A stretch of DNA of 64,000 nt from Sporichthyaceae bacterium (GTDB lineage Bacteria > Actinomycetota > Actinomycetes > Sporichthyales > Sporichthyaceae): the NCBI GenBank assembly GCA_036493475.1, contig DASXPS010000118.1, positions 1 to 64,000 on the forward strand. The letters run 5' to 3'. Position 1 is the stretch's first letter. Every line of letters starts with the position of its first letter. The translations under genes and the position numbers were made by a program. This document shows, piece by piece, positions 16,288 through 17,687 of the stretch. Below the pieces are notes generated by a model. The model made no database searches. It saw only the letters and a list, made by a program, of their open reading frames with translations, and was not told the origin of the DNA.

Positions 16288-16307
16288 TCACCTCTCGACC
16301 CGCACAA

Positions 16308-16365
16308 CTTCGGGCCGCCAGGGCACGTATCAAGGGGCGCTGATACGTGCCTGGACGGCCCGAAG
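16308..16365. terminator. Long bidirectional hairpin terminator
   Basis: Arms 16308-16332 and 16341-16365 pair along most of 25 bases with a short loop. It lies between the convergent PAC2 and sortase-like genes and can serve both. Confidence 0.8.
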
Positions 16366-16377
16366 ATGCGCGTGGTG

Positions 16378-17004
16378 CTACTGGCTCAGGTCGGCGAAGA
16401 CGATGACGTCGGAGTCATCGCCGGTCGGTGCGACCAGGCGCAGTTGCGGGGTCTTGCTGGGGCCGTAAACGTCATCGGCCGGGACGTCGGCGAGCGCGTA
16501 GGTCTTCACCGACTTGACCACGAAGGTCACCTTGCTGCCGCCGTCGGTCTCGACGACGATCTGGTCCCCGGCCTTGGAGTCGCCCAGGTTGGCGAACACG
16601 TCATCGGCGCCGGTCGCGTCCAGCCGGTGCCCGAGGATCACCGCGCGGCCAACTGTGCCGGGCTTCGGACCCGCCGCGTACCAGCCGGCCTGCCCGTAAT
16701 CCGGGGTGTCCAGCGCACCGGTGCTCGCGTCGGTGGACAACGGCTCGATCGCCGCATCGATGTGCAACCGAGCCATCTCCAGATGGGTCGGCGTCTTGTT
16801 GTTCGGGTCCACCGGCGTGATCGAACTCGCCGCCGGCGTCGTGTCGCTCCACGGCCAGCTGTGCAGACCGCCCCACCACAGCAACGGCAGCGCCGAGGCC
16901 GCGGCCAAGAGGTAATGAAGAGCCTTCCACCAGTTGCGGTGATTCGGCCCGACCAGTTCTTCCTCGTGCTCCGGTGCGCGCACCGGCTCAATCGTCTTCA
17001 CCAT
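16378..17004 (-). CDS. Sortase-fold protein lacking the catalytic cysteine
   Basis: A 208-residue membrane-anchored protein with one transmembrane segment (~28-46) and a class E/F-like sortase domain: GRAVILGHRLDATGADDVF with the family His at residue 126, KAGDQIVVETDGG, and VPADDVYGPS. In active members the last strand reads LRLVTCGG and carries the catalytic Cys, with an Arg further on. Here it reads LRLVAPTGDDSD (188-199) and then ends. The whole protein contains no cysteine and the catalytic Arg region is lost, so it cannot act by the sortase mechanism. Its start overlaps by 7 bases the end of a gene for an LPQTA-tailed secreted protein, the natural type of sortase substrate. Confidence 0.85.
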   Translation of the reverse strand: MVKTIEPVRAPEHEEELVGPNHRNWWKALHYLLAAASALPLLWWGGLHSWPWSDTTPAASSITPVDPNNKTPTHLEMARLHIDAAIEPLSTDASTGALDTPDYGQAGWYAAGPKPGTVGRAVILGHRLDATGADDVFANLGDSKAGDQIVVETDGGSKVTFVVKSVKTYALADVPADDVYGPSKTPQLRLVAPTGDDSDVIVFADLSQ

Positions 17005-17687
17005 GCTCCCCCGATGAATTCGCGGCGCCCCGCGGCCCCGGCGGCCCCCGCCGCCCCGGTCACAGCCACGCCCCCCAACACAATCAATGCCAGCGCCGCC
17101 GCACCCAGACCGGCCTTACCGGCCGCAGTCTGCGGTAACAGCGACGCCACGTTGCGCACGGCCGCCGATGCGCCACCCACCCCGGAGTGGTGCGACGAAC
17201 CGTCGGTCGACGGGACGTTCATCAACCCCGGCGGCTTCGGCGCGGTCCAGGTGGACCCGGTCCGCGCAACCGTCCCCGTGCTCTTGTGGTGACCGGACGG
17301 GGTCGGGCCGGGCTTGCCCGGCGACGACCCCGAACCGGTCGATCCCGCTGCGGGCGCCCCCGAGCCCAACAGCGGCAGCGAGTCCACAACGCCCCCCAGC
17401 GTTGGTCCGAGCAACGGCAGGCCGGAGACGATCTGGGCCAGGCTCGGTGACTCATCGCCTGCGTCGGCCGAGGCCGGCGCGGACGTTTGGAGTCCGAGAG
17501 TGTCGGTCAGCCCGTGCAGCAGCTGACCGAGACCGAGTACATCGGCCTGCGGCTCAGCCGTGGGCACGGTGGCCGCGGACGCCGAACCGGCACCCACCAC
17601 CCCCAACACCGCGACCGAGGCAACCACGATTGCCGCCCGACCCGGGTGGATAGCCACCCGGCGCGGTCGAGCATGACGTGCTGCCAT
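16998..17687 (-). CDS. Secreted protein with LPQTA sorting-like tail
   Basis: A 229-residue protein. The ATG at 17687 has a perfect GGAGG seven bases upstream; the frame is open further 5' but without a signal. A signal peptide occupies ~1-38 (Arg-rich start, hydrophobic core, GSASA-A). The body is Gly/Pro/Ser-rich and low in complexity. The tail is LPQTA (184-188), then a ~28-residue hydrophobic stretch, then GRREF: the layout of a sortase sorting signal, with A instead of the usual G. No enzymatic domain is visible. The downstream sortase-fold gene overlaps it, so both should be made together and may interact. Confidence 0.75.
   Translation of the reverse strand: MAARHARPRRVAIHPGRAAIVVASVAVLGVVGAGSASAATVPTAEPQADVLGLGQLLHGLTDTLGLQTSAPASADAGDESPSLAQIVSGLPLLGPTLGGVVDSLPLLGSGAPAAGSTGSGSSPGKPGPTPSGHHKSTGTVARTGSTWTAPKPPGLMNVPSTDGSSHHSGVGGASAAVRNVASLLPQTAAGKAGLGAAALALIVLGGVAVTGAAGAAGAAGRREFIGGAW

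Follow-up and report, generated by a model that had tools for sequence, protein, structure and literature searches.

The window, a 64,000-nucleotide stretch of Sporichthyaceae DNA, encodes a class F sortase-like protein without a single cysteine (the pseudosortase) and, upstream of it and overlapping it, a secreted protein that carries a membrane helix at its C-terminus (the partner). Together the two genes are a conserved pseudoenzyme version of an already known cassette. Sortases are studied as cysteine transpeptidases, and a search of open-access papers turned up no account of a dead sortase or pseudosortase that is conserved. The explanation that we favor, and consider probable, is that the pseudosortase keeps its former substrate in the membrane by non-covalent contact and that the pair derives from a class F cassette.

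The pseudosortase and its partner

An earlier note on this DNA had described a sortase-fold gene lacking cysteine, and that description is confirmed. The pseudosortase matches Pfam PF04203 with an E value of 4.9e-16, which is better than the curated cut-off, and its cysteine count is zero; His126 lies within GHRLD, and the segment around the nucleophile position reads LRLVAPTG. The AF2 model has a sortase fold with a block-mean pLDDT of 89–98 over residues 71–208, and the best solved-structure (PDB) matches to the model are all sortases, with a probability of 1.00. The overlapping upstream gene is likewise present as had been described, and its secreted product has a hydrophobic helix and RR at the C-terminus; the overlap reads ATGGTGA (Table 1). 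The partner start codon sits after GGAGGTGG, the signal peptide ends in SASAA and the ectodomain is of low complexity. A search of Pfam with the partner returned no match, and the structure predicted for it has a pLDDT of 41, a very low confidence, and is uninformative apart from a few helices. On the other side of the pair, a long hairpin separates the convergent pseudosortase and PAC2 genes and is a probable two-way terminator.

Table 1. Features of the pseudosortase–partner pair, in coordinates of the window
Feature	Position	Strand	Remarks
Pseudosortase (Cys-less class F sortase-like)	16378..17004	-	208 aa; stop at 16380-16378
Pseudosortase membrane helix			approximately residues 28-47
Sortase domain of pseudosortase			approximately residues 69-206
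GHRLD segment of pseudosortase	16618..16632	-	residues 125-129
LRLVAPTG of pseudosortase	16420..16443	-	residues 188-195; AP at the catalytic TC position
Upstream partner	16998..17687	-	229 aa; secreted; C-terminal membrane helix, then RR
Partner C-terminal membrane helix and tail	17001..17102	-	AAALALIVLGGVAVTGAAGAAGAAGRREFIGGAW; best conserved stretch of the partner
LPQTA of partner	17124..17138	-	residues 184-188
ATGGTGA, partner stop/pseudosortase start overlap	16998..17004	-	7 nt
Long hairpin between the pair and the PAC2 gene	16296..16377		-60.8 kcal/mol; z -9.4

Loss of the catalytic residues

Pseudosortase orthologues are present in all four of the other Sporichthyaceae genomes searched (G001–G004), with 42–51% identity to the window protein in local alignments. 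Alignment with class F enzymes places Pro or Ser at the nucleophile position of these proteins. Unlike class F sortases, none of the five pseudosortases has the catalytic Cys, and the His and TC/Asn positions are altered. Active class F enzymes read LRLITCGG where the window pseudosortase has LRLVAPTG. The TC motif is replaced by AP in the window and G001 and by TS in G002, G003 and G004 (TSTG), which leaves the Cys position as Pro in the first two proteins and Ser in the other three. The His position is occupied by His in the window (His126) and in G001 and by Arg in G002, G003 and G004 (GRRSQ), and the Asp of GHVDS is gone in 5/5. The position of the triad Arg holds Asp in the window and G001 and Asn in G002–G004, and the loop preceding this Asp in the window protein, at the class F Asn position, is shortened. 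The relatives were searched for a Cys retained elsewhere in the fold; relocation of the nucleophile is ruled out by the finding that not one of the five proteins contains any Cys. The pseudosortase is nearly certainly catalytically dead.

His and Thr-Cys are invariant in 36/36 class F comparators. In a wider alignment the three catalytic positions read H-C-N in 102 rows, H-C-S in 3 and H-C-D in 1, and the 14 rows with H-C-R are all of the class E type. Apart from the five pseudosortases, no complete class F domain in this alignment lacks Cys; the other Cys-less rows are truncated or are class E sequences misaligned at the Cys column. The wider sample favors genes near the pseudosortases, and its counts show that Cys loss is rare but do not yield an exact rate. 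Absence of the final Arg had also been taken as a sign of death, an argument that fails: the sampled active class F enzymes have Asn at this position, and Arg absence is therefore no mark of death.

To our knowledge, the His-Cys-Arg triad is described as universal for sortases, and the Asn found at the triad Arg position of the sampled class F-type enzymes contrasts with this description. The window's own genome also encodes three divergent sortase-like proteins (L005, L006 and L007, on contigs C58 and C32) with low PF04203 scores and active sites of the NAHTWPDGSALGN and LIVCSGKR type, two of the three being neighbors on one contig.

Origin within the class F sortases

The five pseudosortases group in one clade (support 100/98), which in turn lies inside a larger clade (100/99) shared with Cys-bearing class F sortases from Sporichthyaceae (L048, L051 and L054). 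At the level of sequence phylogeny, the tree establishes a single origin for the pseudosortases. The best NCBIfam match of the window protein is the class F model NF033748, with an E value of 1e-29 and a score below its cut-off; the pseudosortases score 103–109 bits against a curated cut-off of 166, and the close active paralogues score 162–175. Class F sortases (NF033748; PF04203) have the same fold, are nearest in the tree and are likewise preceded by a tailed secreted protein. At L048 (approximately 586–1452 on contig C11 of G004) three class F sortase genes lie in tandem, and the middle one is apparently frameshifted before its TC motif, through either decay or assembly error.

The combination of a substrate-type gene and a sortase gene is not peculiar to this pair; it is the usual actinobacterial class F arrangement. 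A membrane-tailed gene lies upstream of most of the active class F sortases sampled, and the motifs are mostly GGVDTG-like. An automatic tail criterion was passed by 92 of 115 sampled rows, pseudosortases and non-class F rows included, and by 87 of 99 after removal of the five pseudosortases and 11 non-class F rows, approximately three of the 87 being spurious frames. The NCBIfam model NF058571 describes the GVDTG-type tail that precedes class F sortases and matches neighbors of the active enzymes, with three of four class-wide examples scoring above its cut-off. Upstream of each of the active L048, L051 and L054 genes lies a gene for a secreted protein that combines a membrane helix and a basic tail with a G-rich motif (GGVETGGGG, GGVAAGGG or GGVATGGGG). 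The layout of a secreted tailed protein followed by a class F sortase is therefore already known, the window pair being a derived version of it.

At loci L002, L048, L050–L059 and L142–L206, the gene immediately upstream of most active class F sortases codes for a secreted protein whose tail is GGVDTG-like, and such neighbors would make it possible to match class F enzymes with their substrates. Tail variants include GAPATGGGG, which falls below the NF058571 cut-off, and GGAAAGGGQ, which NF058571 does not match. In two genomes (L003 and L059) the class F sortase adjoins a YcnI-like protein with the tail VEAGTGGQ or VKAGTGGQ. In Actinoplanes missouriensis, AMIS_11010 and AMIS_36440, unknown proteins with a signal peptide and a tail, adjoin srtF1 and srtF4 and were suggested by the authors to be possible SrtF substrates, and loss of the complete set of four class F genes had no phenotypic effect (PMC13251363). 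These two proteins are the same sort of class F neighbor as the window partner, and the A. missouriensis class F sortases, unlike the window pseudosortase, are not described as Cys-less (PMC13251363).

The partner tail

The features common to the tails of the partners are a hydrophobic residue followed by Pro (LP, VP or FP), a membrane helix and RR. The helix and RR are 76–78% identical, compared with approximately 40% identity over the whole protein. The partner is similar to the GVDTG_CTERM proteins (NF058571) in being secreted, in ending with a helix and basic residues and in being encoded directly upstream of the sortase-type gene, often with an overlap. It differs from them in that the GGVDTG motif is absent from the window partner and the three relatives tested, and NF058571 gave no match to the window partner or three orthologues at E values up to 10.

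The main rival explanation concerns this tail and holds that another active sortase, of class E or F, anchors the partner in trans via LPQTA, the pseudosortase being a helper or a bystander. The machinery is at hand, as the window genome encodes Cys-bearing sortases of both class E and class F as well as ordinary LPxTG proteins, for example with LPHTG tails, and LPXTA is counted among the possible sorting motifs (PMC13251363). However, LPQTA occurs in the window species only; the aligned region reads VPHIS in G001 and FPSNA in G002–G004, and LPQTA, part of what the earlier note had called a sorting-signal-like tail, is accordingly rejected as a conserved sorting signal. The LPXTG-type models PF00746 and TIGR01167 also reported no match to the partner, in line with the silence of NF058571. 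The distance from LPQTA to RR is 37 residues, compared with approximately 30 from motif to RR in the ordinary LPHTG tails of the same genome. The non-conserved motif and the long spacing weaken anchoring in trans, which we judge to be unlikely.

Conservation of the pair

The locus order mshC/pair/PAC2/metH is common to 5/5 Sporichthyaceae genomes, and in all five the partner gene lies upstream of the pseudosortase gene and overlaps it. The suggestion that substrate-type and fold-type genes are kept together thus holds throughout the set. A contig scan with the alignment as the query returned two proteins, a pseudosortase orthologue from Sporichthya sp. MGR_bin378 and a class E enzyme that reads TCNP; the scan with the single window pseudosortase as the query returned no matches. 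A profile search of 394 genomes of the class confined true partner orthologues to the five Sporichthyaceae genomes and gave marginal matches, restricted to the N-terminal part, in three further genomes. The partner was never found apart from the pseudosortase in these genomes.

The tight association bears on a second alternative, in which the pseudosortase acts as a decoy or regulator, either binding the substrates of active class F sortases or competing with these enzymes, and the partner is a mere neighbor. Pseudoenzymes often regulate their active relatives, and candidates for such regulation exist in the Cys-bearing class F paralogues encoded in 5/5 genomes. The inseparability of the partner from the pseudosortase, its conservation and restriction to these genomes, and the gene overlap in 5/5 argue against this role, and we regard it as quite improbable.

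Selection on the pair was estimated as dN/dS (NG86) between G002 and G003, the one informative comparison, as substitutions at synonymous sites have reached saturation across the two genera. The pseudosortase has a value of 0.11 and the partner one of 0.18, compared with 0.09 for PAC2. Frames for the pair are intact in 5/5 genomes, the exception being the G001 partner, which is incomplete because the contig ends inside the gene. The best conserved parts of the pseudosortase are the helix with GGLxxWPW and the domain core, and in each of the two proteins the membrane helix ranks with the most conserved parts. Ordinary LPxTG tail helices are also conserved between these genera, so helix conservation fits a pairing of the two proteins and is no proof of it.

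The earlier note had itself raised decay of the gene in a single strain as an objection, which is met by the orthologues in 4/4 relatives and the purifying selection: a pseudosortase dN/dS of 0.11 indicates a conserved pseudoenzyme and no relic. The broader possibility that the whole pair is a functionless, decaying remnant of a class F cassette would agree with catalytic residues that vary by genus (AP or TS; His or Arg), as expected without constraint, and with an identity to the window pseudosortase of just 42–51%. It is opposed by conservation of the fold, the membrane helix, the GGLxxWPW motif and the overlap, and on the intact frames and the low dN/dS it is rejected as very unlikely. A different chemistry in the domain, such as that of a Ser-based hydrolase or transpeptidase, is extremely unlikely and is also rejected: the Ser of the three TSTG relatives might conceivably act as a weak nucleophile, but their His position is Arg and the two His-bearing members have Pro, so that Ser and His never co-occur in one pseudosortase as a nucleophile–base pair.

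A proposed non-covalent membrane pair

Non-covalent retention of the partner by the pseudosortase, the explanation favored here, would start from a normal actinobacterial cassette in which a secreted substrate with a GVDTG-type tail was served by a dedicated class F sortase. In the Sporichthyaceae ancestor, the copy beside mshC would have lost covalent anchoring. The sortase nucleophile was probably changed from Cys to Ser and then, in one genus, from Ser to Pro; a direct replacement of Cys by Pro requires two codon changes and TCN differs from CCN by a single one, which points to Ser as the intermediate. The catalytic His would have been lost in the other genus, and the partner would have lost the GVDTG cleavage motif. 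We infer both this ancestral motif and this order of losses.

Both genes would have been retained as an overlapping and presumably translationally coupled pair. The pseudosortase domain would lie outside the membrane, over the juxtamembrane hydrophobic-Pro segment of the partner, where it may hold, stabilize or position the partner, and the partner, rather than being cleaved and attached to the wall, would stay in the membrane through a helix of its own. The reading in the earlier note, a dead sortase repurposed to bind, hold or present the tail, is supported in part; that the dead domain binds the tail is plausible, and we infer a physical complex of the two proteins with such a binding site and a role at the surface. 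The stronger proposition, that enzyme and substrate both lost their anchoring chemistry and became an obligate non-covalent membrane pair with the dead domain as the receptor or clamp, is one that we hold to be evenly balanced.

A dead sortase that is conserved across a family and shares an operon with its one-time substrate would demonstrate that this fold can be put to another use, that of holding a membrane protein. The pair also offers a simple genetic handle on the role of the class F cassette, a question that is still open (PMC13251363).
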